Source: Butyrivibrio sp.
Lineage (GTDB): Bacteria > Bacillota > Clostridia > Lachnospirales > Lachnospiraceae
NCBI RefSeq assembly: GCF_017635265.1
Contig: NZ_JAGBLU010000055.1
Coordinates: 1-48,181 of the forward strand
DNA length: 48,181 nucleotides
Direction of reading: 5' to 3'
Both the position numbers and the translations under genes were made by a program. Below, piece after piece: positions 18,464 through 48,181 of the stretch (position 1 is the stretch's first letter; the number at the start of each line of letters is the position of its first letter). The notes beneath the pieces are model-generated. The model had not been told where the DNA came from. It was given only the letters and a program-made list of their open reading frames with translations, and did no database searches.

Positions 18464-18825
18464 TGTTTCTTTTTCTCAGCCATTCTCTCTTTTATTACCA
18501 CCACAACAGTTCCAACCGCAACAACTACAAACGCTATAAAGCCATAAACCATCATGAGAGCCGCACCAAAAATCGGCGCTTCAGAATTAGCACTGACAAA
18601 ATAGTAGTAATAATACGTGTAAAGAACCATTCCCACTACCGTGGATGCAACAAGCATCAGAGAAGAAATCACATACTCTTTCATGCTTTTTGCAAGAAAC
18701 ATATTCATAACTCCAAGTGCAACAATTATGATAAGTAAATACCTGCTGATAAGTGTTCCTCTCAGCTGATCTACAATGAAGAACATAATAAGCGGTATCA
18801 AATTCAGCCATTTCAGATATCTCAT
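18460..18825 (-). CDS. small four-span membrane protein
   Basis: 121 residues with four hydrophobic helices (about 5-20, 28-45, 51-75 and 88-113) and a basic C-terminal end (IKERMAEKKKQ). No family recognised. Its ATG overlaps the stop of the preceding 42-codon stub (ATGA), and its stop overlaps the start of the IIGGADGPT lipoprotein, so all are translated from one message. It may anchor or partner the lipoprotein. Confidence 0.6.
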   Translation of the reverse strand: MRYLKWLNLIPLIMFFIVDQLRGTLISRYLLIIIVALGVMNMFLAKSMKEYVISSLMLVASTVVGMVLYTYYYYYFVSANSEAPIFGAALMMVYGFIAFVVVAVGTVVVVIKERMAEKKKQ

Positions 18826-18950
18826 AATCCCATCCTCATGCTGACGATTCCGTCTTTCTCTCCAACCTCTTCGAAGCCCATGGCGAGCGATGCAGAACAG
18901 TTATTTCCGTTTCTGTGATTTGCTCTTGCTTTCATTTCCATTTCATTCAT
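18822..18950 (-). pseudogene. N-terminal stub of a C_GCAxxG_C_C-type redox protein
   Basis: A 42-codon frame starting at an ATG with GAGGAT seven bases upstream. MKARANHRNGNNCSASLAMG resembles the start of the C_GCAxxG_C_C family (usually about 140 residues with several conserved cysteines). It then breaks off into EEVGEKDGIVSMRM and a stop. Only one cysteine remains. The stop overlaps the next start codon (ATGA). Either a decayed gene or a short leader peptide coupling the ATPase and the membrane protein. Confidence 0.45.
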
Positions 18951-18963
18951 GTTCAAATCCTCA

Positions 18964-19821
18964 TCAAAACTCGTTTTTATGCTTTTCAAAAAAATCAAAG
19001 TAAGTCCTTACTCCCTCAAGCTCCGTCCACTTCTTGATATCTACTGGCCTTTCATCAAGGTCATAAATCAGTGCACCTTTTAACGCCAACAAAAATGGGG
19101 AATGTGTTGCTATTATAAACTGGCATCCAAAGAACCTTGCTGAATTCTGGATAAACTCAAGCAATTCCAACTGCCTCTGAGGCGAGAGTGAGTTTTCAGG
19201 CTCATCCAACAGATAAAGTCCATTATCTTTAATCTTTTCGGAGAAATATTGCAGAGCACTTTCTCCATTGCTGTGCTCTATAATGTTATTTCCAATCGTA
19301 TCTCTGACATACTCTGACTGTGTCTTGGATCTGGCATCCACAACTTTCTTGAGCTGCTCATAATCATCCAATGATTTCATCTGAAACTTTGAATGCTTAT
19401 TCTCAATCCATTCATCAAAAACCTGCTCTTTCTTCCGGTCAACGCCATCGTTCAGTGCTCTTAAGTTGAGCATAAAATCAAATACATCATCACTTGTAAT
19501 CATCCTGATTTCTTCAGGTCTGCCTTCATGTGTCATCTCAAAATCACACATACCGATATAATCACCAAAGAAACTACTTCTGTTGAACAATGTATCTCTT
19601 TCGGCTTTCATTTTCTCTGCCATAAGGTTCAGGGCTGTGCTCTTTCCTGAGCCATTGTTTCCATACAAAATCGTTATTTCAGAAAAAGACATCTCCCGCA
19701 GCTCATTCTCTGCGAACACCCCAAACGGATAGAACGAGGTATAGCACGTTCTTCTTATATAGTTTACAAACTGCTCTTCATTTTCCACTCCTGGAAACTT
19801 AAATGAGTCAATATATCTCAT
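18964..19821 (-). CDS. RecF/AAA_15-like ABC-type ATPase
   Basis: A 285-residue soluble ATPase with Walker A LYGNNGSGKST at about 52, an ABC signature-like NGESALQYFSE (about 187), Walker B LYLLDEPENSLSP (about 205) and the H-loop IIATHSPFLLALKG (about 237). This is the architecture of single-chain SMC/RecF-type ATPases common in defence and DNA-processing loci. The usual long coiled coil is replaced by a short helical segment. Starts one base after the Dabb gene stop with its own GAGG site. It may be coupled with an effector that is not obvious here. Role unknown. Confidence 0.8.
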   Translation of the reverse strand: MRYIDSFKFPGVENEEQFVNYIRRTCYTSFYPFGVFAENELREMSFSEITILYGNNGSGKSTALNLMAEKMKAERDTLFNRSSFFGDYIGMCDFEMTHEGRPEEIRMITSDDVFDFMLNLRALNDGVDRKKEQVFDEWIENKHSKFQMKSLDDYEQLKKVVDARSKTQSEYVRDTIGNNIIEHSNGESALQYFSEKIKDNGLYLLDEPENSLSPQRQLELLEFIQNSARFFGCQFIIATHSPFLLALKGALIYDLDERPVDIKKWTELEGVRTYFDFFEKHKNEF

Positions 19822-19822
19822 T

Positions 19823-20125
19823 TTAAACCTCAAAATCCAGGCAGCTTCTGATCTTGGTATAAGGTCTTACCTTGGAATCAGCTACTGCCACGTGCTCATG
19901 ATGTACTGAATATCCCTTAAGTGCCTCTACGTTCTCAAAAGTTGAATCCAGCATCAGGTCTGCATTTGAAGACTCAAGGCCATTGATGTTAACCTTGATA
20001 TCCACGATTCCGGGTACCTTTCCCTTTAGTCCTTCAAGACCTTCCTTGATTCCCTGCTTGATAGTTACTTTCTCTTCTGCTGAAAGCTCATCCTTAAGTG
20101 TCCACAAAATCACATGCTTAACCAT
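19823..20125 (-). CDS. Dabb (stress-responsive alpha-beta barrel) protein, copy 1
   Basis: A 100-residue dimeric-barrel protein (MVKHVILWTLKDELSAEEK, then the GLEGLKGKVPGIVDIKVNIN core and DSKVRPYTKIRSCLDFE at the end). Dabb proteins form small dimers, sometimes ligand-binding or enzymatic. The ATG at 20125 is preferred because AAGGGGG precedes it. It has a close paralogue at 29982-30284, which differs at only about a fifth of positions. Translationally coupled to the downstream ATPase gene. Confidence 0.88.
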   Translation of the reverse strand: MVKHVILWTLKDELSAEEKVTIKQGIKEGLEGLKGKVPGIVDIKVNINGLESSNADLMLDSTFENVEALKGYSVHHEHVAVADSKVRPYTKIRSCLDFEV

Positions 20126-20155
20126 TCTCGTCCCCCTTATCCTTTCCATCATGAG

Positions 20156-20430
20156 TCACATAAGCATACGCTCTATTATTTCTTTAGTTTCGTCACTGAA
20201 TCCCTCGAGGTCCTTCATTGAGATAACCTCATATCCCGCCAATGATGCCAGATGCAAGTCCGTCGCCTTTAAGGAAATCTACGTATTCTTTTATCAGCTT
20301 TTCCATGTAGTTTTCCTGCCAGTCAGGAAGGTCCTTTCTGAAAAGCATCCAGAACTTTGAGATTTTTCTCGATAAGTTTTTTGTCCGCCTTGGCAGGCAG
20401 ATCGTCGGGGTCCGTTGCCCTTTAAAAAAC
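20156..20430 (-). pseudogene. decayed gene with at least two frameshifts
   Basis: Three consecutive frames each read like protein for a while: ATDPDDLPAKADKKLIEKNL followed by KVLDAFQKG, then LPDWQENYMEKLIKEYVDFL, then LHLASLAGYEVISMKDLEGF ending ETKEIIERMLM and a stop. Joined, they give one helical protein of about 90 residues interrupted twice. The family is not recognised. Upstream part may also be missing, since no start codon was found. Confidence 0.5.
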
Positions 20431-20460
20431 ATATTTTTACTATAACAGAAAAAGAGCCAT

Positions 20461-20652
20461 TTAACAGTAAATTATACTGTCAAAATCAAACGTGCTCTTG
20501 AGCATAGGATTATTCTTATAATAATCCTTATTCTTGTAGGCTCTGTCCATAACTTCATGAAGTCCTTTAGCTTCCTTAGTGTGAACACCACTGCTTGAGA
20601 CAAGTACAATGACGTTGTACTTTTGAGCAAAAGAAAAAGACGCATAAACCAT
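20461..20652 (-). pseudogene. C-terminal fragment of an unknown protein
   Basis: 63 codons (SFAQKYNVIVLVSSSGVHTK, then HEVMDRAYKNKDYYKNNPML). The frame extends upstream of the first ATG until a stop, with no ribosome binding site. Looks like the end of an alpha/beta protein; probably a remnant adjoining the flavoprotein gene. Confidence 0.35.
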
Positions 20653-20694
20653 ATGGCCTATACGTCTTGAGCTATAACTATCATTTTATCCTTT

Positions 20695-21348
20695 TTAATC
20701 ATCTGGCTTATCCATTGTTAAAATTCGATAAACCAAGTTTTTCCCCATATTATATGCATTCTCCAAATCTATCGGAAACTGCTTTTCTCTTTTTGCCTTC
20801 TTTTCTTCAAGCCTCGACCTGAATTGCTCGTTCAAAGCCGTATTTTCATTATACTGAAATGTATCGTAGGCATGAAGTGTTTCGGGCTCAGTTCCAAAGC
20901 AGTCTTTTATGTACATATTAATGATATCCATTGGTGCTTTGGCAAAGTGTGCCTCCTGCTCTTCATTCATGTTCATTGTATATATCAAAGCAGTCGGAAT
21001 GACCTTGGAAGAACGCCCAGGATACATGAGTCGTTCCCAAAATGCTCTAAGCTGAGCTGTTACATTCAGGTAATAGATTGGAGAGCCAAACACGATTCCA
21101 TCCGCATGAAAAGTCTCTGAGAGTATGTCAGATATATTGTCTTTAATCCTACATCCTAAATCAGCCCTATTTGCGGTAAGCTGACAAGCAAAACAGCTCT
21201 TACATCCTGTATAAAGATAGTCATAAAGATTATATGTTACTACCTCAGCATCCGGGTTAGCATCACTGACACCTTTGATAAAAGAATCCAGTAACTGTGC
21301 TGTGTTGCATTTTTTCCTGGGTCCACCATTTATAGCTACGATTCTCAT
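20695..21348 (-). CDS. flavodoxin-fold NAD(P)H:FMN reductase
   Basis: A 217-residue protein with the flavodoxin-like phosphate loop (NGGPRKKCNTAQLLDSFIKG, from residue 7), the GCKSCFACQ cysteine patch seen in iron-sulfur flavoprotein relatives (about 49) and the FMN-binding GSPIYYLNVTAQLRAFWERL (about 88). It likely reduces flavins or quinones or transfers electrons, with FMN bound. Only three cysteines are clustered, so a 4Fe-4S centre is uncertain. AGGAG ribosome site. Monocistronic, with remnants downstream. Confidence 0.85.
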   Translation of the reverse strand: MRIVAINGGPRKKCNTAQLLDSFIKGVSDANPDAEVVTYNLYDYLYTGCKSCFACQLTANRADLGCRIKDNISDILSETFHADGIVFGSPIYYLNVTAQLRAFWERLMYPGRSSKVIPTALIYTMNMNEEQEAHFAKAPMDIINMYIKDCFGTEPETLHAYDTFQYNENTALNEQFRSRLEEKKAKREKQFPIDLENAYNMGKNLVYRILTMDKPDD

Positions 21349-21435
21349 AGAAATCTCCTATTAAAGTACGTTTACCTTACTGAATATCGGTTTTTACATA
21401 ATTCTAAAAAATCCATGTCATACACCTTTCAAATG

Positions 21436-21723
21436 TCAGATTCCTTCTGTGATAAATACTCTGTACTTGGCACCCTTTAAGCGGTGTTTCATAGCCTCCT
21501 GATAAATTGGATTGTCGTAAGTAGCTTTAGCTTCCTCAATATTATTAAACTTTATAATGGTAGCTCCATCTACTGTTGCCCCTTCCAAAGTTACCGTCTT
21601 GCCATAAAAAGCAAGAGGCTCGGCCTCGTATTCATGAGGAGCCTTTTTAGACTCCTCATTGTATATATCCATTTCCTTCTGATCAGTAATCTCATCTCTG
21701 ATATAAATCATATATGCGCTCAT
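21436..21723 (-). CDS. DUF1330 dimeric alpha-beta barrel protein
   Basis: 95 residues with the DUF1330 pattern: MSAYMIYIRDEITDQKEMD, PLAFYGKTVTLEG, and the paired GATIIKFNNIEEAKATYDNP and YRVFITEGI. A small ferredoxin-like barrel of unknown chemistry. GGAGG ribosome site. Follows the crotonase gene by 15 bases on the same strand, and both are divergent from an HxlR regulator, which suggests a shared detoxification or catabolic role. Confidence 0.82.
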   Translation of the reverse strand: MSAYMIYIRDEITDQKEMDIYNEESKKAPHEYEAEPLAFYGKTVTLEGATVDGATIIKFNNIEEAKATYDNPIYQEAMKHRLKGAKYRVFITEGI

Positions 21724-21738
21724 AAAATCACCTCCGGA

Positions 21739-22575
21739 TTACTCTTCATCTGGGCCAAGACGCGCCGGGAAATTAAGCTCCAAATCTTCAATGTTGCTGA
21801 AATCAAGTTGTTTGCCATCGTTAGGATATTCCTCACGGCCTTCCTTCCAGTCATCAAATGCATGAAGCATGTAGTTGGATGTGAAAAGAGTTCCCTCATC
21901 AGGTGCATAAGCTCTTGCATTTACAAGTTTCTTTCCAACATAAAGTGAGCGCTTAGGGAATGAAGCTATTCTTTTTGCAAATTTATCAACAAAATCATCC
22001 AGCTTGTCATCATCAATGGCGCGGTTTACAAATCCGTATTTCTCTCCAAGCTCAGCTCCATACTCATCTGCACTTAGTACAATTTCCAAAGCTCTTGCTC
22101 TGCCGCAGAGATTTGAAAGCCATTCGACTCCGCCACCTCCCGGAATTGAGCCGCCGCCTACTTCTACAAGAGAGAACTTCGCTTTTTCTTTTGAAGCAAA
22201 GATCATATCTGTAGCAAGGGCAAATTCAAATCCCTGTGCCCAGGCACGTCCTCTTACTTTTGAAATCGTAAGTACAGGACTGTTTACAAGACGTGTCACA
22301 AATGTAGGCCACTCATGAAAGAAAGGCTTTGCCCCGGGAACATCAGGTACTTCAAGTCTGTGTTCAACATCATGGTGATCAATGAAGAAATGCTCATTTG
22401 CACTTTCAAATACAACAACCTTTAACTTCTTATCAGCATCCATCTGATCCATAAGTACATTTAACTCAGCAAAAAGATATGGATCCCAGTTGTTGTATGG
22501 AGGATTTCCTATGATAACCCTCCAATAGCCTTCATTTACCTTTACAACTTCAAGTCTTTTTAATTCTCTATTCAT
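21739..22575 (-). CDS. enoyl-CoA hydratase/isomerase (crotonase) family protein
   Basis: 278 residues. Crotonase-fold landmarks: VVVFESANEHFFIDHHDVEH (about 58, the CoA/oxyanion region), GRAWAQGFEFALATDMIFAS (about 118) and LVEVGGGSIPGGGGVEWLSN (about 145), which keeps the Glu that corresponds to the first catalytic acid. Position two of the catalytic pair cannot be judged with confidence. The start at 22575 has GAGG seven bases upstream; a longer frame without a site is rejected. Probable substrate is a CoA thioester or a carboxylic acid, unknown. Divergent from HxlR, and followed by DUF1330. Confidence 0.85.
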   Translation of the reverse strand: MNRELKRLEVVKVNEGYWRVIIGNPPYNNWDPYLFAELNVLMDQMDADKKLKVVVFESANEHFFIDHHDVEHRLEVPDVPGAKPFFHEWPTFVTRLVNSPVLTISKVRGRAWAQGFEFALATDMIFASKEKAKFSLVEVGGGSIPGGGGVEWLSNLCGRARALEIVLSADEYGAELGEKYGFVNRAIDDDKLDDFVDKFAKRIASFPKRSLYVGKKLVNARAYAPDEGTLFTSNYMLHAFDDWKEGREEYPNDGKQLDFSNIEDLELNFPARLGPDEE

Positions 22576-22596
22576 GTCAAAACCTCGCTTTCTTGT

Positions 22597-22625
22597 TTGC
22601 AATTTCTCTTTACAAGACCTATAAT
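22597..22625 (+). promoter_or_regulatory. consensus-like sigma-A promoter of the HxlR gene
   Basis: TTGCAA, 17 bases, TATAAT. The region also contains CTTTCTTG and its exact reverse complement CAAGAAAG, which flank the promoter and could be regulator half-sites controlling both directions. Confidence 0.65.
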
Positions 22626-22687
22626 AACGAGCAAGAAAGAAAATGTATAGTACGCAGAAAAAACTGCCTTGCTTATAGGAGGTCAAA

Positions 22688-23119
22688 ATGAAAGCTGAAG
22701 ATCTAACAGAACTACTTGAGACAGGGGCTAAAACAACAGATGAAATATGCCCTGTTCTTTATACGATGTCCATACTCGGACAGAGGTGGAAACTGCCTAT
22801 CTTGTGGCACCTGGCTGATGAGGGAACTCTCAGATATAATGAGCTGAAACGAGGCATCCCTATTATCACAAATATCATGCTCACACAGTCCTTAAGAGAT
22901 TTGGAAGATGCCATGCTTGTAGAAAGACATAATTTAGAAACTGTACCACCACATGTGGAATATTCTCTTACAGAAAGAGGTAAAACGCTCATTCCAATAC
23001 TAAAACAGATACATGCCTGGGGCGATGATCAGATGGCTCTTGTTGTAGAAAAAGCAAAGGCTGATGGGAAATGGCATGAGAGGACTGGCTCTGAGGATAA
23101 CCCTATAAAGTTGAGATAA
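22688..23119 (+). CDS. HxlR-family regulator (crotonase/DUF1330 side)
   Basis: 143-residue winged-helix protein of the HxlR/MarR-like type: CPVLYTMSILGQRWKLPILW, ELKRGIPIITNIMLTQSLRD and PHVEYSLTERGKTLIPIL. HxlR proteins are dimeric sensors of electrophiles, often with a conserved Cys near the N-terminus (here Cys22 in EICPVLY). GGAGGTCAAA precedes the ATG. Divergent from the crotonase gene with the strong promoter in between, so it is presumably its local regulator. Confidence 0.88.
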   Translation: MKAEDLTELLETGAKTTDEICPVLYTMSILGQRWKLPILWHLADEGTLRYNELKRGIPIITNIMLTQSLRDLEDAMLVERHNLETVPPHVEYSLTERGKTLIPILKQIHAWGDDQMALVVEKAKADGKWHERTGSEDNPIKLR

Positions 23120-23127
23120 AAAAAAGA

Positions 23128-23177
23128 AATGGACTCGGAAGTGAGGTATTTTTTCTTTCCTCATTTCTTTGTCCATT
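23128..23177. terminator. long nested hairpin between convergent HxlR genes
   Basis: AATGGAC pairs with GTCCATT and, inside it, GAAGTGAGG pairs with CCTCATTTC (one G-T). The loop is T-rich. The stem is long and symmetric, and A-rich and T-rich flanks sit on either side. Probably a bidirectional terminator for the two convergent regulators, although the T-run lies in the loop rather than after the stem. Confidence 0.5.
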
Positions 23178-23219
23178 GTAAATATAACACACCCAAAATC
23201 ACTTGAAAACAGACATCAA

Positions 23220-23252
23220 GCAGACATTTTGCAGACATTTTGCGGACATTTT
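23220..23252 (+). repeat. three 11-bp tandem repeats
   Basis: GCAGACATTTT, GCAGACATTTT and GCGGACATTTT stand head to tail, with a fourth, weaker AACAGACATCA just before. They lie in the last bases before the convergent HxlR gene stop. Likely slippage-derived; no function assigned. Confidence 0.7.
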
Positions 23253-23262
23253 TCAAAATCGC

Positions 23263-23619
23263 TTATTTTTCTGCCTTCATCTGATCATCCGCCCAATTAT
23301 ACACAGACTCAAGTGCGGGAATCAGTGTTTTTCCACGCTCAGAAAGAGAATACTCGACTGTAGGCGGAATCGTATTGTACTGCTTTCTCTTTATAAACTT
23401 ATCCTTTTCCAGTTCCTTAAGACATTTCGTAAGCATCGTTGCTGTAATGCCTACAACCTTTCTTTCAAGCTCTCTATATCTTAATGTCTGATTTTCTGCA
23501 TCTGAAATATACCACAAAATAGGAAGCTTCCATTTCTGTCCTATCAGATCCATTGCATACAAAATCGGACAGTCAGTTTTGTATATATTTTCGTCTTTTG
23601 GTAACTCTTTCTTCCCCAT
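23263..23619 (-). CDS. HxlR-family regulator (old-yellow-enzyme side)
   Basis: 118-residue winged-helix protein: DCPILYAMDLIGQKWKLPIL (with the N-terminal Cys), YRELERKVVGITATMLTKCL and PPTVEYSLSERGKTLIPALE. The ATG at 23619 has AAAGGAG upstream; the longer frame is rejected. It diverges from the flavin oxidoreductase operon at 23751 and probably senses the electrophilic substrate of that pathway. It is clearly a different paralogue from the one at 22688. Confidence 0.88.
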   Translation of the reverse strand: MGKKELPKDENIYKTDCPILYAMDLIGQKWKLPILWYISDAENQTLRYRELERKVVGITATMLTKCLKELEKDKFIKRKQYNTIPPTVEYSLSERGKTLIPALESVYNWADDQMKAEK

Positions 23620-23649
23620 AAATACTCCTTTACTATATTTTTTGTAGTG

Positions 23650-23684
23650 ACAAAGAATATTCTGCCTTCTTGTTTTTTCTTTGT
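23650..23684. promoter_or_regulatory. HxlR operator candidate
   Basis: ACAAAGAA and its perfect complement TTCTTTGT are separated by 19 bases between the divergent HxlR gene and the flavin oxidoreductase gene. The spacing suits two dimer half-sites on one face of the helix. Inferred, not proven. Confidence 0.5.
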
Positions 23685-23750
23685 ACCAAATTATAATGAA
23701 GCCAAGGTGAAAAGTAAAGCTTTTCATTGAGTTAATTAAGGAGGTCTGCA

Positions 23751-24773: not shown

Positions 24774-24785
24774 GGAGATAATCTC

Positions 24786-26014: not shown

Positions 26015-26023
26015 GGACGGTTT

Positions 26024-26557
26024 ATGGATAAAATCATTATTACAACTTTCACAGATCCCATGATGGGCCTTACATACGAATGTGAGCCCATTTATGACAA
26101 ATTGCAGGAGTATTATGGAGATGCCTTAGAATTAAAATATGTGATGGCAGGCCTTGTAAGAGATGTTTCCGACTTTATGATTCCAGATGAACTCGCTCTT
26201 CCTGCGAAAGAAGGAATTAAGAAATATAATAAAAGACTTGCCGGTATATATAAAAGTGAGGAGTCCATTGGAGGACTCCCCATAAATATGAAAGGCTTTC
26301 ATCTTTTTGATGAAGAGCACCGCTCCTCATATCCTCTTAACATCGCCTATAAAGCTGCTCAGCTTGCAGACAATGAAAAAGCGGACTTGTTTCTATATAA
26401 TCTGCGACATGCTACTGTTTTAGAAGCCAGGCAGACTACCTTGACCACAGAAATACTTAATGTTGCAAAGGATACAGGGATTAATACTCCCCTGCAATCT
26501 CCACATATTCTTTCATGCTATTCACAACGATGCCATTATTTAGGATCCTGGCATTAA
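26024..26557 (+). pseudogene. DsbA-like protein lacking the CxxC, truncated at its 3' end
   Basis: The first 150 codons are a DsbA/FrnE-like thioredoxin-fold protein (TTFTDPMMGLTYECEPIYDK; FYLLNALR-type region here as LFLYNLRHATVLEARQTTLT). The usual CxxC after DPM is replaced by MMGLTYEC, so oxidoreductase activity by that site is unlikely. From about 26480 the frame enters the antisense of the neighbouring DUF4869 gene and ends 25 codons later. It has lost the second half of its fold. The last gene of the flavin oxidoreductase operon. Confidence 0.6.
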
Positions 26558-26917
26558 AATCCCCATCTCCAAAATCCATCACATGTCGAAGATTGATAGT
26601 TAAATCCTTACTCTCCGCAATTTTCAAAATCCATTTTGCACAGTTATTTCCACAGGCAGAAGCATTAAACACTTTGCCTGTTTCGTCAAATGCCATTAGT
26701 ATCAGAGTTTTTACACCATCCGACAGTTCCTTGGTTGAAATAGGTCCAAGGACTGGACTCTGGATAAGTGAGGACCAACCACCTCAGATTTATCCACATC
26801 CTTTATCATCTCAACTGACAATGAAGCTGTAATCCAGTTATCTTCATAGGTATTGTCAAAATATGTCGGTGGATGATATATAGTATTGTCCGCGTCTCCA
26901 AATACAATGCTTAACAT
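26481..26917 (-). pseudogene. DUF4869 protein interrupted by a frameshift
   Basis: MLSIVFGDADNTIYHPPTYF ... TASLSVEMIKDVDKSEVVGP begins the protein. After GPHL the frame shifts (near 26770), and the continuation IQSPVLGPISTKELSDGVKT ... FNASACGNNCAKWILKIAES completes a normal-length DUF4869 (about 145 residues) to its stop. GGGAGGTGG precedes the ATG. Function of the family is unknown; it is common in clostridial accessory DNA. The single shift could be a sequence error. Confidence 0.7.
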
Positions 26918-26932
26918 ACGTCCACCTCCCAA

Positions 26933-27043
26933 CTATTGATATAGTAATTTTACCATAATATATACTTTTACCCGACCATCATCTAATATCTGAGAATGTG
27001 TTATCTCAGTCTCATCATCTAGTGTTAAATGTGGATACATCAT
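26933..27043 (-). pseudogene. N-terminal stub of a small accessory protein
   Basis: 36 codons with a strong AGGAGGTCATAAATT before ATG-ATG. MMYPHLTLDDETEITHSQIL matches the start of a small family (about 85 residues) that I remember upstream of DUF4869 or DUF4160 genes in gut Firmicutes. The expected middle and end are gone. The stop is followed 15 bases later by the DUF4869 start, so the pair was an operon. Confidence 0.5.
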
Positions 27044-29454: not shown

Positions 29455-29568
29455 TTACTCCCACTTTTTCCATATTTCAGGCTGATACTTTATACCATGT
29501 TCTTTAAAAAAGCGTTCTGCTTTTTTCGTGTCATTACTTTTTTTAGTTCCAAAAATCTGTATATTCAT
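29455..29568 (-). pseudogene. ArsC/Spx-type gene with a large internal deletion
   Basis: 37 codons. MNIQIFGTKKSNDTKKAERF then FKEHGIKYQ is the start of an ArsC-related protein. It is followed at once, in frame, by PEIWKKWE, which matches the usual C-terminus of that family (...GYQPxVWKxWE). About 80 codons between are missing, apparently joined at the shared YQ coding triplets. The start overlaps the deformylase stop by one base (TGATG). Confidence 0.6.
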
Positions 29569-29978
29569 CAAATAAGTATTCCTTCAAAATGATCTATCTC
29601 ATGCTGGATTATCTGTGCTGTGAATCCATTGTATTTTCCATGTTTGGGCTGAAAGTCCTGATCTAGGTAATCCACCTCGATCTCTTTATACCTGGTGCAT
29701 GGTCTCACCCCATCCAGGGAGAGGCAACTCTCTTCTGTCTGATATTCACCTCTCTTCTTTGTAATGACAGGATTTATCATAGGAAATACAAAAGGTCCCA
29801 TTGCAACTACTATGATCTTTTTCTTAACCCCGATCATGTTTGCTGCCATACCTACACATCTTTCCTGATTAGCTCTTAATGTATCAAGCAAGTCTTCCAC
29901 AACCTGCTTATCCCTTTCTGTTGCCGGCTCTGCCTTCTGCTGTAAAAAGAACTGGTCCCTGACTATCTTTTTTACCAT
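29568..29978 (-). CDS. peptide deformylase with altered motif 1
   Basis: 136 residues. Motif 2 is ESCLS (about 83, metal Cys) and motif 3 QHEIDH (about 127, two metal His and catalytic Glu). Both are complete. Motif 1 (normally GxGxAAxQ) reads GVGMAANMIG, so the active-site Gln is replaced by Met. This is known to me from clostridial side-branch deformylases. Removes formyl groups from nascent proteins or, as a secondary copy, may have another amidase role. GAGG site. Start-stop overlap with the ArsC stub. Confidence 0.85.
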   Translation of the reverse strand: MVKKIVRDQFFLQQKAEPATERDKQVVEDLLDTLRANQERCVGMAANMIGVKKKIIVVAMGPFVFPMINPVITKKRGEYQTEESCLSLDGVRPCTRYKEIEVDYLDQDFQPKHGKYNGFTAQIIQHEIDHFEGILI

Positions 29979-32787: not shown

Positions 32788-32895
32788 TCATAAAAGGCAT
32801 CTGCTATGTCCACCATTCATACCATTTACCATCATCTTTCCAAGAAAGCCTTCCGGTTTTCTTGTCTGACTCACATAATCTTTAAAAAGTCCCAT
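32788..32895 (-). pseudogene. N-terminal stub of a class I methyltransferase
   Basis: 35 codons after GGAGGAAGTAAGAA. MGLFKDYVSQTRKPEGFLGK then MMVNGMNGGHSRC is the standard opening of a SAM-dependent methyltransferase that would continue ...WG...IxDxGCGGG. Here it stops after SRCLL. Starts a few bases past the stop of another, near full-length methyltransferase, so two tandem genes existed. Confidence 0.6.
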
Positions 32896-32898
32896 TTC

Positions 32899-33692
32899 TT
32901 ACTTCCTCCCCATTAAAATAGCTGAACCTGATAATCCCATCCAGGTTGACTCCCATTTAGTCATGAACATTCCGCTTGTTGTATCTACAAGTTTTACATC
33001 GTCATATCCCATGTCTTTTAGCTTCTGTACAAATGCCTGCATATCACCGTATTTTACCTTTGACATAATGTCATGGATTGCGAATGTACCGCCCTTCTTT
33101 AAAGTGCGTAATGTCTCCAAAAGGATCGCCTGTCTGTCACTGCTTGGAATATTGTGATATACATAGTTGCTTGTTACTACATCAAAGGTCTCATCTTCAA
33201 AAGGCAGTTTACATGCGTCTCCCTGCATAAAAGAAGTATTGTTTACACCTTCCGCTTTAGAATTGCTCTCACAGAGATTTTTGCTGAATGAAGCATACTC
33301 CTTCCCCCCCATCTGTCAATTCCTGTAAAAGACGCTCCTGGATTCTTCTTTGCACAGGCTATCGTAAGAGCTCCACTTCCGCATCCAACATCAAGCCCCT
33401 TTCCACCAACAGGAATGCTTACATAAGAGGCGACCCCTTCAATAATCTGTTTTGACATCTGCCGCTTTCCGTTGTAAGAAAAAGCTCTGTACATCAAATA
33501 CATCCATATCGTCACGACACAAAAAATAACTGTAATGATCAAAAGCACAATTCCAATAACTCTTTTTGCGCTTCCTTCCGGCACTATTGGAGACACCCCT
33601 AAAATAAGAAAAAGAACCAGTGAAGCTATTGTTCCGCATCCGGTTCCCATCACCATACCCTTTGGCATCCAGTTTTTATAATCTGCTTTCAT
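32899..33692 (-). pseudogene. membrane-anchored SAM methyltransferase, frameshifted at a G7 run
   Basis: Two overlapping frames make one protein. The first (33692-33304) has two membrane helices and then GGKGLDVGCGSGALTIACAK and FTGIDRWG. The second reads KEYASFSKNLCESNSKAEGV, QGDACKLPFEDETFDVVTSN and KKGGTFAIHDIM to a stop. The shift occurs in a run of seven G (33304-33310, C on the + strand). GGAGGAAAAAGTGT precedes the ATG. Real protein of about 265 residues if read as one. May be a homopolymer error, a phase-variable tract, or decay. Confidence 0.75.
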
Positions 33693-35325: not shown

Positions 35326-35526
35326 AACACTCACCTCTTTCGCACAACATCATCAGTTACTACTTTTTCTATCCATCGGTTTTTCCTCTTTCTATCTGTT
35401 TACAAACTTTTATATTTTTCTGTTGATGATATCATTATAGATGTGCCCGTTCTTAGTTTACATAATTACTTCAGTGATATCGGAACGGTTATTTCACATT
35501 TTCAGCAAATTAAAAAGGAAAGCATC

Positions 35527-35586
35527 ATGTCAACCTACGCTATTTCTGACCTTCACGGGCAATTAAGCACCATGATGTCAAGATAA
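35527..35586 (+). pseudogene. N-terminal stub of a metallophosphatase
   Basis: 19 codons after AAGGAAAG: MSTYAISDLHGQLSTMMSR. YxISDLHGQ is the metal-binding start of Ser/Thr-phosphatase-like enzymes. A stop follows at once. The gene is cut where it meets the macro-domain fragment on the opposite strand. Confidence 0.6.
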
Positions 35587-35820
35587 TTCTGCTGCGACAG
35601 TCTGGTAAATCAGGTAGTCCTCTTCACTAAAGCTGACTATGGTTATCTCCATGTCATAGTCTGAATTGGCCTCAAGCCACTCCTTTACAGTCTTAAGGGC
35701 AACTCTTGCCGCGTCCTTCTTGGGATAACCATAGACACCTGTAGATATCTCAGGGAAAAGCAATGCTGTGAAGATTGTTTGCTTTTGCCACTTCAAGGCT
35801 GTTCCAATAACAGTTGTGAA
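35578..35820 (-). pseudogene. macro-domain remnant, 5' part lost and frameshifted
   Basis: The C-terminal half of a macro (ADP-ribose-binding) domain: NCYWNSLEVAKANNLHSIAF in one frame, then PEISTGVYGYPKKDAARVAL and VKEWLEANSDYDMEITIVSF in the next, to a stop. The ISTGVYGYP loop is the diagnostic ligand loop. The N-terminal half with the AANxxLxxG motif is absent, and a one-base shift splits IAF from PEIS. The stop lies within the stub on the + strand. Confidence 0.65.
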
Positions 35821-35891
35821 GATCTAATAAATACATCAAGAGGAACAAAACCTCTTGCCCCCTCATAAAAACATACTTTTTTATAACACAT

Positions 35892-38880: not shown

Positions 38881-38889
38881 TACCAATTA

Positions 38890-39792: not shown

Positions 39793-39819
39793 CAAACTAA
39801 ATATCCTTTACATGTCCCG

Positions 39820-41377: not shown

Positions 41378-41470
41378 ACTCTTTTATTTCCTCACTGCCT
41401 TTTCGATTCAACGCTCTATATGCTATCTACAGATGCATCTCATGTTTAGCACGATTCCTATAATATGCTT

Positions 41471-41593: not shown

Positions 41594-41602
41594 TCATATA
41601 TT

Positions 41603-41956: not shown

Positions 41957-42075
41957 AGTTTTCTCCTGATTACCAAGTAGTCAAAAGCACAGTACAGATC
42001 TGTTTCATATTCATCGAGATACATGTCATGGCTCATGTTCTCATAAAAGTCCTTCCACTCTTTAATCTGCAGCAT
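41953..42075 (-). CDS. very small frame coupled to the ArsC-like gene
   Basis: 40 codons: MLQIKEWKDFYENMSHDMYL then DEYETDLYCAFDYLVIRRKL. The stop overlaps the ArsC-like start by 4 bases. No clear ribosome site or family. Either a tiny protein or an N-terminal stub of a longer one. Confidence 0.3.
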   Translation of the reverse strand: MLQIKEWKDFYENMSHDMYLDEYETDLYCAFDYLVIRRKL

Positions 42076-42091
42076 TCTCCTATTATAGCGC

Positions 42092-42543
42092 TTAAAACTT
42101 AAGATTATCTCCCAACACCGGGACTTTGCTTGCAAAGAAGGAAAACTCTCCACTATCTAGGAGATTCCCTTCATCATCAGTCACTCTGATATCAAATACA
42201 AGAATATGCTTTCCGGTCTTGAGTTTCATACATTCGCAGTAAATATATTCAGTATTTACCGCAGGCAAAAGAAAATTCAGATTAGCCGAAACTGTGGTAA
42301 CATAATATCCGCTCATGCTGCCTGTAGCACCTGCCATGGCATCAACAAAAGACAAAAGTGCCCGCCATGGATGCTCCCATAAGAATTATGAAGTCTGGTA
42401 TCACATTTTATCCTGGACTTGCTGTAAGTCGGACTTAATTCCATCACCTCAAAGCCTATAAATTTGTTATATTCATTTGCATAAAGCTCAGGTATTATCT
42501 TCTCCCTGATTGCTTTTTCTTTTTCTGTACGAGCTTTTCTCAT
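42092..42543 (-). pseudogene. hotdog-fold (PaaI-like) thioesterase, frameshifted
   Basis: First frame: REKIIPELYANEYNKFIGFE and CDTRLHNSYGSIHGG (the hotdog catalytic HGG). After HGG one base is missing, and the continuation ALLSFVDAMAGATGSMSGYY, then TTVSANLNFLLPAV lies in the next frame. Together a normal 150-residue thioesterase 4-type protein acting on acyl-CoA. Single-base loss near 42355; could be sequence error. Confidence 0.72.
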
Positions 42544-42647
42544 TCCTTTTAATTTCTCACAATGTCTGGACTCCCTTTATCCAACCTCTCCTGTTTCTTC
42601 GCTGATTCTTATTATACTGTCTCCCATAAGTGGCATGACAAGCATAT

Positions 42648-43103
42648 TCATTCCTCAGGTTTTTCTTCTCTACCACTAAGCCTTGAGTCAAATATGGCTT
42701 CTTCTATGACTTTGACGCACTCATCCGGATTCTTCTTAATATCTGTTCCCCAGAAACGCATTACCGTCCAGCCCTCAAAAAGAAGCTTCTTGTTAATTTC
42801 ATTGTCACGTTCACGGTTTCTCGAAATCTTACTTATCCAGAACTCACTGTTATTGCTTTTCTCCAGTCTGGGTTTTAATAATTCCCAGTCCTTTCCATGA
42901 AAAAACTCGCCATCACAAAATATGGCAATCTTATACTTTGTGATGACTATGTCTGGGTGTCCTGGAAGTTTAGCGTAATTTTTCCTGTATCTGTACCCTT
43001 TCTTCCATAGGGCCTTCCGCAGGATGACTTCTATTCTGGTATCCTTGGACCGGATGTGTTTCATATTTTTCGTGCGCTGTTCTTTCGAAAGTACATCAGC
43101 CAT
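42648..43103 (-). CDS. vsr: very short patch repair endonuclease
   Basis: 151 residues. VLSKEQRTKNMKHIRSKDTR opening, LRKALWKKGYRYRKNYAKLP (about 34), the zinc/DNA site GHPDIVITKYKIAIFCDGEF (about 53, catalytic Asp in PDIV), FHGKDWELLKP, EFWISKISRNRERDNEINKK and VMRFWGTDI. Nicks 5' of T in T:G mismatches arising from deamination of 5-methylcytosine. The ATG at 43103 lies inside the restriction gene's end (8-base overlap). Its pairing with a Dcm-type methylase is the usual arrangement. Confidence 0.93.
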   Translation of the reverse strand: MADVLSKEQRTKNMKHIRSKDTRIEVILRKALWKKGYRYRKNYAKLPGHPDIVITKYKIAIFCDGEFFHGKDWELLKPRLEKSNNSEFWISKISRNRERDNEINKKLLFEGWTVMRFWGTDIKKNPDECVKVIEEAIFDSRLSGREEKPEE

Positions 43104-44343
43104 TCTTATACCCATCAGCAAATATCTGCCGCTCTTTGACCAGTCCCAGGAAATCCTCAACCGAGTATAACCATGACTGCTGTTTCTCAGAATATGTTGC
43201 ATGAATTTCTTTAGGAACAACAAGCTGTAACTTACGGCTTATCATTTCATTAGTCTGATTCTCGCTAATAGCTCCTTCAAGTGTTATGAGATGCTTTCTC
43301 TCAATTCTATCTGCCTCCTCAAGAACCTGCCTCCACCTGTCTTTAGCAGTAGTCTTGGCACCAAGCATCGTAAGCTGTGTGGCAGGATAATTCACATCAC
43401 GGTAATAATCTATTGAAGGAAAGATAAAATCAGGTTTGGATTTATTCTCTGTAACAGGAGTATGGGAATATCTTATTTTATGCTCAGCAAATAACGCTTC
43501 CAAATGATTCTCAAATGACAGACCCGCCCTTGATTTTCTTCTGTTATTAACGGAGAGCGAAAACTGGATAAACGCATCAACATCAACATCGTCTCCAGTT
43601 TTGAATCCAACCATAAGACGTTCCTGTATCAGATACCTCTCCATGCACTTAAACATTTTTTCTTCCCTGTCAAACCACAGCAAAAGTGCACCATCAGGAT
43701 CATGAAGCGGATCTGCTTCAACCGTTTCTCTTGCAAACTTGGAAAATTCTCTCGTAGATGGAAACGCATTTCCAAACTTGGCAACAAGCATATCTGTATA
43801 ATCTTCTTTGTCATCCTGTGTTTCAACTCCAATGGCATACAAAATCATTCTGGCTGTAAACGACACCTTGTCAGATGGCTGTGATGTCATATCAGTTTTG
43901 GCGACAAACTGGTTCGGATTTTCATCCGGTCTTACGTCAAAGAGCCAAAAAAGCTGGTTCTCAATTATTGAGTCTTTTCTTGCAATGATCTCAAGAACCG
44001 TTCCGTCAGCTTTAAGGCAAATAAAAAGTGAATCTTCTGCAACAGCTGATTCTGTGACGGTATTTGTAGGATAATACAGTCTCCATTCTGTTCTAGTAGG
44101 ATGATTAAACCTGGCATCATACCATGTCAGCTCACCATCCGCAGAAATAGTACTGTCATCATCTGTAACATAAATAAAATGCGTTGGTATGCTTATTTTC
44201 TGCTCGTCTGTTCCAAACATTTTCTTAAGCAGACTCACACCATTATATTCATGCTGGTTGCTTACAGCGGCATCGGCTTCAACTGCCGAGAGGCGCTTCA
44301 CAGCAACAGCTTTAAAATACTGATTTAAATATCCCGCTTCCAT
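43096..44343 (-). CDS. EcoRII-type type IIE restriction endonuclease
   Basis: 415 residues, close to EcoRII (404). The N-terminal effector domain (about 1-180) is followed by the PD-(D/E)XK core: AGLSFENHLEALF (about 275, Glu), KSKPDFIFPSIDYYRD (about 299, the PD Asp) and TMLGAKTTAKDRWRQVLEEA (about 325, catalytic Lys and the Arg-Trp of the EcoRII family). EcoRII-type enzymes cut CCWGG and need two sites for activity. The adjacent Dcm-type methylase and Vsr agree with that specificity. GGGGGAATGT before the ATG; 17 bases after the methylase gene. Confidence 0.88.
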   Translation of the reverse strand: MEAGYLNQYFKAVAVKRLSAVEADAAVSNQHEYNGVSLLKKMFGTDEQKISIPTHFIYVTDDDSTISADGELTWYDARFNHPTRTEWRLYYPTNTVTESAVAEDSLFICLKADGTVLEIIARKDSIIENQLFWLFDVRPDENPNQFVAKTDMTSQPSDKVSFTARMILYAIGVETQDDKEDYTDMLVAKFGNAFPSTREFSKFARETVEADPLHDPDGALLLWFDREEKMFKCMERYLIQERLMVGFKTGDDVDVDAFIQFSLSVNNRRKSRAGLSFENHLEALFAEHKIRYSHTPVTENKSKPDFIFPSIDYYRDVNYPATQLTMLGAKTTAKDRWRQVLEEADRIERKHLITLEGAISENQTNEMISRKLQLVVPKEIHATYSEKQQSWLYSVEDFLGLVKERQIFADGYKNG

Positions 44344-44360
44344 ACATTCCCCCTAAGTTC

Positions 44361-45584
44361 TCATACAACTGCCTGTATTTTCTTTTTGGCGTTGATTTCA
44401 GGGATATCCCCATCAACTCCCACAGCCATAAGCTTTTCTGCTTTCACAGATACATTATTATGCTCTGCAGCCGCATCAAGTTCTGAAATCTTAGAGCATA
44501 TAAGCTGTGCCACATTGCTCATAAGAGGAACTACTACAGAATTGCCAAACTGTCTGTATGCCTGTGTATCTGAAACAGTAATTTTAAAAGTATCAGGAAA
44601 TCCCTGCAGGCGGGCACACTCTCTTGGCGTAAGTCTTCTTGGATTTTTCCCTTTCTGGGCAATGAGAATCTCTGATCCATCTTTATAGTATCTGGCACTT
44701 AGTGTTCTTGATATTCCATCAGGATCCGCAATGCCATATCCGAATCCATTACCAGCCGCCTTGTGCTTTGCAGCATATCCCTGAAGATATGTCCATAGCT
44801 TGTCTGACAATGTATACTTGGAATCAACCTCTGTCTCAAGGATATCTTTCATGACTGGTTTTGGATCAATCTTCTTTATATCAAAAGAGAATCCTATATC
44901 GCTGCCATAACGCTTTCTGTCAAAACCAACGATGATAATTCTCTCCCTGTGTTGGGGAACAAAAGCCTGCCCATCAATAACCTGGTAGAAAACCTCATAA
45001 TCCAATTCATCAAGTGATTCCCTGATTACCCGGAATGTCCTTCCCCTGTCATGACTGCAGAGATTCTTAACATTCTCAAGCATAAACGCTTTAGGCCTTT
45101 TAGCTTTTAAAATCCTGCACACATCGAAGAAAAGAGTCCCTTGTGTCTTATCTTCAAATCCCGTTGCTCGTCCCATGCTCTGTTTCTTGGAAACACCAGC
45201 AATTGAAAATGGCTGGCATGGAAAACCTGCAACAAGAATATCGTGATCAGGAATCTCATTCTCATCCACTTTGGTTATATCTCCCTCTGGCTGTTCTCCA
45301 AAGTTTGCAAAATAAGTCTGCTGACTGTATTTATTCCATTCGCTGGAGTAAACGCAATGGCCACCTGCACTTTCATATGCAAGTCTCATACCACCTATAC
45401 CGGCAAATAGATCTATGAATGTGAAGTTTGCATTTTCAGGAATTTCTTCCTTGTTCTGATTATTTATATACTGCATGATTGCAGATGAAACCACATCCTG
45501 CAGTGATGAATTTTCATTGGTGTTGCAGCCAGTCAATGCCTCATAAACAGCATCATCAAGTCTGACATGTAATTGCTTTGCCAT
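44361..45584 (-). CDS. Dcm/EcoRII-type DNA (cytosine-5-)-methyltransferase with N-terminal RHH-like extension
   Basis: 407 residues. C5-methyltransferase motifs: [20 protein letters not shown] (about 55), [20 protein letters not shown] (about 118, catalytic Cys), [23 protein letters not shown] (about 210), [14 protein letters not shown] near the end, with the target-recognition part (about 225-330) between. The first 48 residues ([20 protein letters not shown] ... [13 protein letters not shown]) look like a ribbon-helix-helix, which may bind the gene's own promoter as in several C5-methylases. Protects CCWGG sites from the partner endonuclease. GAGGAGTAAGAT precedes the ATG. Confidence 0.92.
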
Positions 45585-45768
45585 ATCTTACTCCTCCCCG
45601 GGTATTATCCCATACCAATTCTATCCCATTATAGCAAATTCAATTTCTTACTACAATATATTGGGGACATTTATGGTATATGATAATTCCCTGCACAAAA
45701 TGTTGAATACACTACAAAAGCCTCCTTCGTATCACATGTATTCTGTTATATCCATCATAAAAAAAATA

Positions 45769-45813
45769 AGAGTCCGATAATCACCCCAGAATATGTTGCG
45801 GTTTTCGGACTCT
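45769..45813. repeat. intergenic element, copy 2, with closing hairpin
   Basis: AGAGTCCG (45769-45776) pairs perfectly with CGGACTCT (45806-45813). The 29-base loop contains ATAATCACCCCAGAATATG and TTGCGGTTTT. Homologous to 38323-38361. T-rich on both sides, so it could act as a terminator for the broken gene at 45864 on the - strand as well as be a structured RNA. Confidence 0.6.
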
Positions 45814-45863
45814 ATTTCATGCTGAATATACAATATGTAGTTTTTATTCAAATAGACAGCTAT

Positions 45864-46124
45864 CTATTTCTTTATTATCTCATCAAAGCAGGCTTCTCCA
45901 TCTGAAAGGTCTAAATGACGCACAAACGTGGCATGCCTAGTCAGTTCGGAATATGCTATACGGTCGGTGTTACAGAATATCTTGCATAAGGGTCTGATTC
46001 CATAACTTGAAAAGATCTCGACATGCATTCATTTTTCAATATCATTTACATTTTCATTAATAAACGCATTCCGATAATACCTGGAATATGACTTAATGTT
46101 TTTATCAATTTCCTTATTATCCAT
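45864..46124 (-). pseudogene. gene broken by an in-frame stop
   Basis: A continuous frame that begins MDNKEIDKNIKSYSRYYRNA then FINENVNDIEK, meets a TGA (46029-46031) and goes on without shift as MHVEIFSSYGIRPLCKIFCN ... HATFVRHLDLSDGEACFDEI and a stop. Total about 85 residues. The TGA is followed at once by ATG, so re-initiation is possible. Family not recognised. Lies between the YdcF gene and the repeat copy 2. Confidence 0.45.
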
Positions 46125-46158
46125 CTCTTTTAATCTAATCCTTTAAAGTTTCAAATGC

Positions 46159-46923
46159 CTACCACTTCATTATGGTAATATCTCTTATTATTCCAAAGCA
46201 TTCCCTTATCATGTTGTTGGGCAGATACCATGGCACTGTATAGGCTGCAATTCCATAAACATCCGCTTCCGTAAGCTTTTTTGCCAAATGTATTCCGCGG
46301 AAAACATGGAAATTATTTGTCACAATCCCAATCGACTTTAGTTTATCTGACTCCCCACCAGTAGTTCCGATGATATCCAGTGAATTTGCTATATTTTCTG
46401 TTGTGTCCATGGCTCTTGTCTCTGCTATGATGCGGCCCGCTTCAACTCCTTTTGAGATTAGATACTCTTTTCCTCCTTCTCCCTCGGTAACGGATTCATT
46501 TCTTCCCTGCCCTCCTGAGACAATGCATATTGTCTCGGGATTATCCAGAAGATACTCATATGCCTCATCAAGTCTGTACTTAAATATGATACTCGGACCG
46601 TTTTCTCTCATCTGAGCTCCAAGTACAACGATATAGTCAAGATCTTTTACTCCCTTGTCACCAAAGTGGCTTAACATTGCCGTCATGCAGACAGTAAAGA
46701 CAATAAGCGCCACAATAATAAAACAGTAACAGGCTCCTCTTAGTACTGCCGGCACCTTCATCCATCTGTCATCACCGGCAAAGAACCATGCACATCCGAA
46801 TAATGCTGCACCCACCAGCCATATAGCAAAAGAAAAGGTTCCACTTCCTACCATGTATATGCTCACAGAATAGATCAGGCATATGACCGTGAGTACGCAG
46901 AAAATGGCTCTCAAGTATTTCAC
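46159..46923 (-). CDS. YdcF/SanA-family (DUF218) membrane protein
   Basis: 254 residues. Three N-terminal spans (about 5-90) are followed by a DUF218 domain: LDYIVVLGAQMRENGPSIIF (about 100), CIVSGGQGRNESVTEGEGGK (about 132), ETRAMDTTENIANSLDIIG (about 165), IGIVTNNFHVFRGIHLAKKL (about 190) and AAYTVPWYLPNNMIRECFGI. The family acts at the cell envelope, with suggested roles in peptidoglycan or vancomycin resistance (SanA), but chemistry is not established. GTG start after AAGGGATAAGGA. Confidence 0.88.
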   Translation of the reverse strand: MKYLRAIFCVLTVICLIYSVSIYMVGSGTFSFAIWLVGAALFGCAWFFAGDDRWMKVPAVLRGACYCFIIVALIVFTVCMTAMLSHFGDKGVKDLDYIVVLGAQMRENGPSIIFKYRLDEAYEYLLDNPETICIVSGGQGRNESVTEGEGGKEYLISKGVEAGRIIAETRAMDTTENIANSLDIIGTTGGESDKLKSIGIVTNNFHVFRGIHLAKKLTEADVYGIAAYTVPWYLPNNMIRECFGIIRDITIMKW

Positions 46924-46954
46924 AGTAAATCTTCCTTATCCCTTCATTTATATT

Positions 46955-47065
46955 TCAGAACAGGTTCAGCTGTTCATAGTCGCTTTTTCTATTAAGCTCA
47001 GGCAGGCCAAGCTCTTCTTCCACGTCCTCTGCAGTTTTATCAGCATAATAATATCTTCCGCACAT
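46955..47065 (-). pseudogene. N-terminal stub of an SRAP (YedK/HMCES) protein
   Basis: 36 codons: MCGRYYYADKTAEDVEEELG then LPELNRKSDYEQLNLF and a stop. MCGRY with Cys2 is the diagnostic start of SOS-response-associated peptidases that crosslink to abasic sites in single-stranded DNA. The remaining 200 residues are absent. No ribosome binding site is obvious. Confidence 0.55.
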
Positions 47066-47180
47066 GCATTCATTATACCTTATCTGTAATAATAAAAAAT
47101 TAATAATTTGTTCAATTGAAACAATAGTCTGATAAGATGTTCGAAACATACATTCGATAATCATTCATGAGGATATGCGT

Positions 47181-47447
47181 ATGGACAACAATTATAAGAT
47201 CATAGCCGTTGATTTCGATGGTACTCTCTGCTACAGTAACTGGCCGGAACTTGGTAATCCCAATACCAGGCTTATCAGCTATCTGTTAAAAGAAAAAGCG
47301 GCAGGAAACAAGCTCATACTCTGGACTTGTAGAGCCGGAAAAGCTCTTTCAGATGCTACCGTTTGGTGTCATGAACAGGGACTTAGCATTTCACAAGTGT
47401 TTGGGTTGCACTCCAAAAGAAGCTTAACCAGCTTATTGAAACCATAA
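47181..47447 (+). pseudogene. N-terminal part of a HAD-like hydrolase, 3' end lost
   Basis: IAVDFDGTLCYSNWPELGNP (the DxDGT nucleophile) and LISYLLKEKAAGNKLILWTC then RAGKALSDATVWCHEQGL are a phage- or accessory-type HAD protein (about 150-170 residues when complete). From about 47385 the frame is the antisense of the neighbouring nucleotidyltransferase fragment and stops. GAGGATATGCGT precedes the ATG. Confidence 0.65.
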
Positions 47448-47674
47448 ATAACTGTATCTGTCTTGTCATCTTCGTACTGGTCAAATTCAGTCATCCCCAA
47501 CAGATCAGATGGCATCTGAAGTGTCACTCCCCTGAAATCGATATCACTGCCTTCATTGTTGGTACCATATGAATAACTGCCTCCAAGGCCCAGCAACATT
47601 ATTCTATTTCCAAGTCTTTCATTTGTCCGGAGGAAATCATACTCCTCCGAGTTCATTAACTCCTTAAAATCCAT
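47369..47674 (-). pseudogene. N-terminal part of a nucleotidyltransferase, 3' end lost
   Basis: 102 codons. MLLGLGGSYSYGTNNEGSDI then DFRGV is the polymerase-beta-type metal site (GSxxxGTxxxSDxD) of a small predicted nucleotidyltransferase that normally continues to about 250 residues. TVIYGFNKLVKLLLECNPNT follows the family, then it ends after EMLSPCS. The lost 3' end coincides with the lost 3' end of the convergent HAD gene, consistent with one deletion. Confidence 0.7.
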
Positions 47675-47739
47675 TACAATTTAAAAACTCGTTACTTAAC
47701 AATGTACCCATACAACCTTTGCCCAAAATGGAAACCTTC

Positions 47740-47991
47740 TCAAACAAAATGACTTCTATCCTGAATATCCACATCCAGGCCCTCATCATATAGCAGCTTC
47801 TCTATATGCGTAGCTGCATAGTCACCAATTCCAAATACTTGCCACTCCCATCTCTTTTGACGGGCAAGAAGAACAAGCAGCCCCACGTTATCAATTCCCA
47901 TATTTAAAAGACATTTGATATTATCGGAACTAAGGCCTTTAATACTGCCAAGATCGTAATACACCTGCTTCGACTGTTCATATTTTGCCAT
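47740..47991 (-). CDS. hypothetical protein
   Basis: 83 residues (MAKYEQSKQVYYDLGSIKGL, SSDNIKCLLNMGIDNVGLLV, WQVFGIGDYAATHIEKLLYD). GGAGAGGTTGCTT precedes the ATG at 47991. Not recognised; a helix-hairpin-helix like arrangement is conceivable from KGLSSDNIKCLLNMGIDN. Overlaps the end of the previous fragment by 14 bases, in another frame. Confidence 0.45.
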   Translation of the reverse strand: MAKYEQSKQVYYDLGSIKGLSSDNIKCLLNMGIDNVGLLVLLARQKRWEWQVFGIGDYAATHIEKLLYDEGLDVDIQDRSHFV

Positions 47992-48181
47992 AAGCAACCT
48001 CTCCACTCCTGGCAATAAGCTCCCGCCACTCCCATGGGTTCACTTTAGGATTTCCACACCACCAATACTCAACTGCAGTACGCTCCTCAAGTGAAAATCC
48101 CGGAATATCATTCTTAAAAAGTGGCAGAAATCCTACTTCATTTATGTAATCAATTGCATCCTGAACTGTATGCAGGCATTC
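47978..48181 (-). pseudogene. AlkZ-related protein, truncated, cut by the window edge
   Basis: Enters from the right edge: TVQDAIDYINEVGFLPLFKN then DIPGFSLEERTAVEYWWCGN and NPWEWRELIARSGEVAYGKI to a stop. The phrases GFLPLFKN, WW and PWEWRELIARSG are familiar to me from 'AlkZ-related' (winged-helix glycosylase-like) proteins of gut Firmicutes, which go on for about 150 more residues after VAYGKFF. Here the frame stops right after VAYGK. Confidence 0.5.

Follow-up and report, generated by a model that had tools for sequence, protein, structure and literature searches.

Broken genes in the Butyrivibrio window

The stretch analyzed here, referred to as the window, is 48,181 bp long and represents the entire contig C23 (NZ_JAGBLU010000055.1) of a draft genome of Butyrivibrio sp. 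(GCF_017635265.1), which comprises 4.15 Mb in 151 contigs and is 88% complete. From about 7 kb rightwards, the window is a mosaic of 0.1–2.8 kb blocks with sharp ends and 90–99% identity to other Butyrivibrio. A first-pass annotation made from the letters alone had listed nine short open reading frames (ORFs) as N-terminal stubs that keep the start signals of recognizable genes, together with two 3′ losses. We compared these stubs with the ORFs of relatives placed on the window and searched 79 genomes for stub 26933. Each stub is named after the low end of the small ORF on the minus strand or the start of the one on the plus strand; G, C and L numbers stand for genomes, contigs and loci. All nine are broken, and the presence of intact longer alleles in relatives indicates that the broken genes are more than chance.

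Eight of the nine are truncations. Stub 18822 (18822..18998, minus strand) consists of residues 1–44 of a 130-residue ORF fused to residues 129–147 (the final 19) of a 147-residue one, and stub 26933 (26933..27043, minus) corresponds to the first 28–30 residues of a protein with an open frame of 97–115 residues elsewhere; longer open frames were present in 4 of the 78 other genomes, with 73% identity at best. Stub 29455 (29455..29571, minus; residues 1–29 of 113) has a weak ArsC/Spx profile match, and stub 32788 (32788..32895, minus) covers residues 1–32 of 207. Only 12 codons after the ATG at 35527 are common to stub 35527 (35443..35586, plus) and its relatives; read from an upstream start it comprises residues 1–40 of 277. 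Near the right end, stub 47181 (47175..47399, plus; residues 1–75 of 117; NCBIfam HAD profile 2–67 of 137) lies tail to tail with stub 47369 (47369..47686, minus), which contains residues 3–103 of a 344-residue protein of the RlaP family (Pfam RlaP 9–97 of 249). Stub 47978 (47948..48181, minus) holds residues 19–97 of a 254-residue AlkZ-related protein (AlkZ-rel) and lacks 606 bp relative to G078, with a 2-bp joint. The start of this gene falls outside the contig, so that no start signal is visible. The ninth, 46955 (46955..47164, minus), is not a stub. It carries an in-frame internal deletion of 471 bp with a 3-bp joint that removed the middle of the gene and left residues 1–23 and 178–193 of 193; the same allele occurs in G012.

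The 3′ loss at 7737 was confirmed. In detail, a Thg1 gene (7835..8455, minus) without its 3′ end (residues 1–207 of 253), from which 2317 bp are absent compared to G022 with a 3-bp joint, is followed by a C-terminal remnant (7740..7838, minus) that represents the last 33 residues (336–368) of a 368-residue protein and is 100% identical to an ORF of G039. The loss at 26480 concerns a Thioredoxin_5 gene (26024..26557, plus) and is supported by the profile only, whose match stops at position 127 of 186. Further C-terminal remnants belong to a Macro-domain gene (35581..35824, minus; residues 98–178 of 178) and to the genes at 45867..46040 (minus; 143–200 of 201) and 47743..47991 (minus; 87–169 of 169), and at 20161..20604 (minus) small C-terminal and internal gene pieces are placed end to end. 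Three genes are split over two frames, a DUF4869 gene (26481..26932, minus; profile 1–50 and 64–128 of 128), a methyltransferase gene (32902..33692, minus) and a 150-residue gene (42095..42543, minus) that is present as an unbroken ORF in contig C94 of this genome. Furthermore, pieces of different genes left by deletions appear to have formed open fused ORFs. The candidates are an 83-residue ORF (18212..18463, minus) with an N-terminal piece (1–58 of 155) fused to a C-terminal one (213–248 of 253), a 191-residue ORF (7140..7715, minus) as a possible fusion of an N-terminal piece (1–66 of 284) and a C-terminal piece (186–331 of 331) of relatives' proteins, and an ORF at 20479–20844 of contig C66 in G012.

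Surviving gene ends and deletion joints

A strict count over 58 loci (one near-duplicate of 59 was dropped) yielded 122 remnants, which are composed of 42 N-terminal, 54 C-terminal and 18 internal pieces and 8 that keep both ends but lack the middle. The 12 strict remnants of the window alone include 5 N-terminal and 5 C-terminal pieces, 1 internal piece and 1 that keeps both ends; these are fewer than in the ORF comparison above, because pieces at most 150 bases from a contig end were excluded. N-terminal remnants therefore exist as described in the first-pass annotation, but the equally common C-terminal ones (p 0.26) had been missed. The apparent N-terminal bias arose because the ORFs were read from their starts, and stub lists built from start codons catch only half of the remnants. 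This is relevant for the proposal that selection keeps gene starts with promoter, ribosome site and coupling while the products are removed. Stub 26933 has a good ribosome site, and some other ORFs of the window, looked at in passing, have one likewise, but C-terminal remnants are at least as common and deletion lengths are not clearly tied to the frame (multiples of three in 23 of 55, see below). There is no sign that gene starts are retained on purpose and no clear end bias, and we regard such selection as highly improbable.

To characterize the joints, we compared 42 loci with 1.2 Mb in total. The 77 raw one-sided indel events were reduced to 70 by context and to 60 clean joints in 13 genomes once events whose joint was ambiguous or whose mismatches exceeded 6 had been removed; one of these joints is internal to a single genome. 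Merging of joints with the same short allele, for which the smallest overlap was retained, left 55 joints, each with a long allele for comparison and with deletion sizes from 46 to 6900 bp (median 477). The joints share 3.56 bases on average (median 3) and at least 4 in 23 of 55 cases, whereas joints drawn at random at most 200 bp from the true ends share 0.74 on average and only 2.4% have 4 or more. None of the 20,000 resamples reached the observed mean, and the values before merging are very similar (3.68 versus 0.72–0.75 shared bases, n = 60). The window takes part in 12 joints (mean 3.33 shared bases), and for 4 joints the short allele is that of the window itself. As the loci were chosen for their similarity to the window, these numbers give no genome-wide rate, and the counts of joints, remnants, order and orientation are not independent, since related loci were compared pairwise. 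Short-homology deletion, one of the processes suggested in the first-pass annotation, is supported by the excess of shared bases. A gene at 11366..12004 (minus) points to the same process: it is whole in the window, and G012, G039 and G022 each have a different internal deletion in it, a pattern that is difficult to account for by anything other than repeated, independent loss.

The second process suggested at that time, a mobile element that cuts and leaves, found no support. Joint overlaps span 0–13 bp, and the 23 joints of at least 4 bp all differ from one another. A shared motif at the breakpoints, to be sought by aligning relatives, did not emerge either, as no position exceeded 0.2 bits in the 60 joints; short direct repeats were found instead. 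The 60 removed segments have no general excess of terminal inverted repeats (mean 9.5 versus 9.1 of 25 positions); two of them reach the 99th percentile of random pairs or more, with 17 as the best value.

Draft assemblies raise the question of chimeric joins, and several properties of the window are in line with such an artefact. In addition to the completeness of 88% and the division into 151 contigs, 19 of 27 probed block ends are not spanned at all in other loci, and the first 141 bases of the window recur with 100% identity in contigs C109 (1–141) and C147 of this genome, which resembles an assembly fork. On the other hand, the same kind of joint occurs between two different named isolates (11 of 55, mean 3.64 shared bases), and several places of the window are uninterrupted in other assemblies; the place at 47000, for example, is found in G012 with 98% identity. 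Of the 27 probed ends and joints, 7 are spanned by a match of at least 86% identity in another assembly, and the others are not supported in this way. As an explanation of the whole pattern, we consider assembly errors very unlikely.

Taken together, the stubs are probably scars left in an exchanged chromosomal array of accessory genes by deletions between short direct repeats, mostly of 2–9 bp, that occur by chance. Several points weigh against this interpretation. Of the 55 joints, 5 have no base in common and 7 have a single one, so that some deletions may need another route, and the proportion of deletion lengths that are multiples of three is slightly, although not clearly, above one third. 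For joints observed in the window alone, the evidence comes from a single draft assembly. The polarity, deletion rather than insertion, is deduced from reading frames and not from a tree. Finally, block order differs in 168 of 914 pairs of shared blocks, which deletion alone cannot yield.

Block mosaic, order and orientation

The mosaic was delimited by DNA searches in three parts of the window. Positions 28182–48181 were compared with 79 genomes of the genus, among them that of the window, and the three best candidates in each genome were scored; for 8182–28181 and 1–7000, 25 of these 79 genomes were used and the best 12 candidates per genome were scored. Among the matches listed for the first of these searches, at least 10 of the other 78 genomes have blocks of at least 90% identity, and gene pieces of the window with recurring sharp ends are found in several genomes among the matches listed. 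The left flank (1–7000) had no block of at least 90% identity outside its own genome beyond a 31-base match in the 25 genomes searched; the matches have 66–79% identity if longer than 100 bases and 72–94% if shorter. As the array has blocks of 90–99% identity and the left flank has none, both seem to have different histories. Within the array, positions 19827–20125, which are covered by a Dabb-domain gene, and 29986–30284, about 10 kb apart, have 79% DNA likeness. In the arrays of relatives, tRNA clusters of 4 to 16 genes with largely shared order lie amid accessory genes (L048–L049 in G078, L056–L057 in G039, L060 in G022, L068–L069 in G012 and L091 in G052); the window itself has no tRNA genes.

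A comparison of shared blocks (pairs of high-scoring segment pairs with at least 100 bp and at least 90% identity) revealed that the relative strand is kept in 914 of 914 cases and the order in 746. Block chains give the same picture, with strand agreement in 181 of 181 pairs from 66 contig pairs. Chromosomal integrons have cassette arrays of many unrelated small genes, mostly in one direction, whose order is shuffled and whose orientation is constant. An integron-like or other site-specific system, with blocks as cassettes and stubs as cassette parts left by a recombinase, would therefore account for the shuffled order with constant orientation and for gene pieces with recurring sharp ends in several genomes. 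Tyrosine recombinases below the integron cut-off are also present in 10 of 10 genomes, some of them near array stretches. However, no integron integrase (IntI) scored over the cut-off in any of the 10 genomes, and the arrays differ from chromosomal integrons in that they have no shared end site and their joints, as described above, have no common motif and differ among themselves. In addition, the blocks end within genes, and the cuts in one gene differ in position from relative to relative. We therefore reject site-specific cassettes, for which hardly any probability remains.

The orientation of blocks is also related to replication. In 168 of 170 contig pairs the block strand follows the sign of the GC skew of the unshared remainder, if contigs with weak skew or fewer than 4000 unshared bases are excluded. 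In G022, where the GC skew changes sign near 0.75 and 2.9 Mb, blocks that adjoin in the window sit on both chromosome arms (1.81 and 3.54 Mb), each consistent with the fork, and matches of weaker identity at 0.99, 1.28 and 2.48 Mb run against the fork direction. ORFs oriented head-on in one genome have this orientation in the other as well in 43 of 45 comparisons, a count that takes both directions and is based on 27 distinct head-on ORFs, some of them the same gene. This constancy disfavors selection on gene direction alone as the cause of fork orientation. The plain reading of the orientation pattern is descent and homologous exchange together with inversions symmetric about the origin. A bolder idea is a recombinase-free counterpart of the superintegron common to Butyrivibrio and Oribacterium. 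In this open pool of accessory genes, short-homology joining tied to replication direction would reshuffle the blocks between species; orientation to the fork would be kept whatever the gene direction or chromosome arm, and stubs would serve as the next homology anchors. Descent and origin-symmetric inversions would yield the same constancy of head-on genes. We consider this fork-coupled pool improbable.

Constant orientation would also be required if blocks enter by homology-anchored recombination. In homology-facilitated illegitimate recombination as the main process, one end would pair with shared array sequence and the other would join by microhomology, so that the stubs would be made during acquisition and not by later deletion. 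The orientation, which almost never flips, fits this scenario, as do mosaic-block ends from different relatives that overlap by a few bases and two-sided replacements such as the 68 bp at 32738–32805 in place of 537 bp in G022. ComEC was found over the cut-off in 10 of 10 genomes, and DNA uptake by Butyrivibrio is therefore possible as judged from gene content. The process is described for naturally competent bacteria (Touzain et al., 2010, PMC2884548; Amarir-Bouhram et al., 2011, PMC3240628), in the latter with one homologous and one illegitimate end, which would give oriented mosaic arrays; here it is a candidate derived from sequence comparison. One-sided deletions, by contrast, require no incoming DNA, and no trio of donor, recipient and recombinant is in hand, none having been sought. 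We consider stub formation during acquisition rather unlikely as the main route.

Gene retention and spread of the array

Twenty intact array genes were compared with their closest full-length relatives (85–99% DNA identity), and the overall ratio of nonsynonymous to synonymous differences per site (pN/pS) of 0.14 demonstrates that they are under purifying selection. The genes compared include those for LigT-like, Nudix, patatin, HD, AP-endonuclease-like and DUF218 proteins. Adjoining the intact array genes, a set of Vsr, EcoRII-C endonuclease and cytosine methylase genes is located at 42648–45584, with a second copy of 83% DNA identity in contig C94 of the same genome, and positions 12568–16350 encode a large helicase-like protein for which the MkoC defence model scores best (8.5e-60).

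The protein encoded at 10211–10912 was used to follow the spread of array genes. It was detected at 25 loci of named genomes with 72–100% protein identity, all in Butyrivibrio, Oribacterium or Clostridia/Lachnospiraceae, and three full-length copies in Oribacterium have 91–94% identity. Partial matches only were obtained for Oribacterium NK2B42 (L121, residues 164–233), Oribacterium KHPX15 (L123, 191–233) and Butyrivibrio AC2005 (L122, 137–233). From the partial Oribacterium matches, gene erosion seems to touch this second genus, too. The array appears to be swapped among Butyrivibrio of the rumen, with Oribacterium taking part for at least one gene. A phage origin was rejected, as positions 18–40 kb have no near match among phage records and the protein at 10211–10912 has no match in phage records and no confirmed relative in viral contigs. 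The same applies to a plasmid origin, since positions 26–48 kb gave two matches only in a near-mode search, both to an HD-domain gene with 72.6% identity.

Based on these data, blocks would arrive by horizontal transfer, most simply by recombination at sequences common to the arrays. Unneeded genes would then be cut, and the joints suggest slippage or Ku-free end joining as the way in which this happens. Ku was found in none of the 10 genomes, which makes classical end joining unlikely, and replication slippage or end joining without Ku are the pathways that remain. Such cuts would leave N-terminal, C-terminal and internal pieces alike, and genes that matter would be retained by purifying selection, which is why intact genes are found between the scars. 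Known mechanisms suffice for the stubs. Touzain et al. (2010) attributed small variable segments of bacterial genomes to deletion at short homologies and, as a proposal, to homology-assisted replacement, and, as here, short segments come and go by illegitimate recombination, partly between short direct repeats. Their segments, however, were compared within three species, with 10–18% flanked by repeats, whereas the blocks described here are shared between species with 90–99% identity. The deletions also resemble RecA-independent deletion between short repeats, in which a direct-repeat segment is lost without a known site-specific recombinase (Azpiroz and Lavina, 2017, PMC5426353); that study used two experimental models in E. 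coli, and our evidence is comparative only. A precedent for the arrays themselves did not turn up in the open-licence literature, which is weak evidence given the limited coverage.

The arrays provide a view of the trimming of acquired genes at base-pair level and across species, in which useful genes stay intact under selection and their neighbors are cut by short-repeat deletions. This trimming sometimes yields fused ORFs, and the arrays represent a natural record for measuring the balance between gene gain and gene loss.

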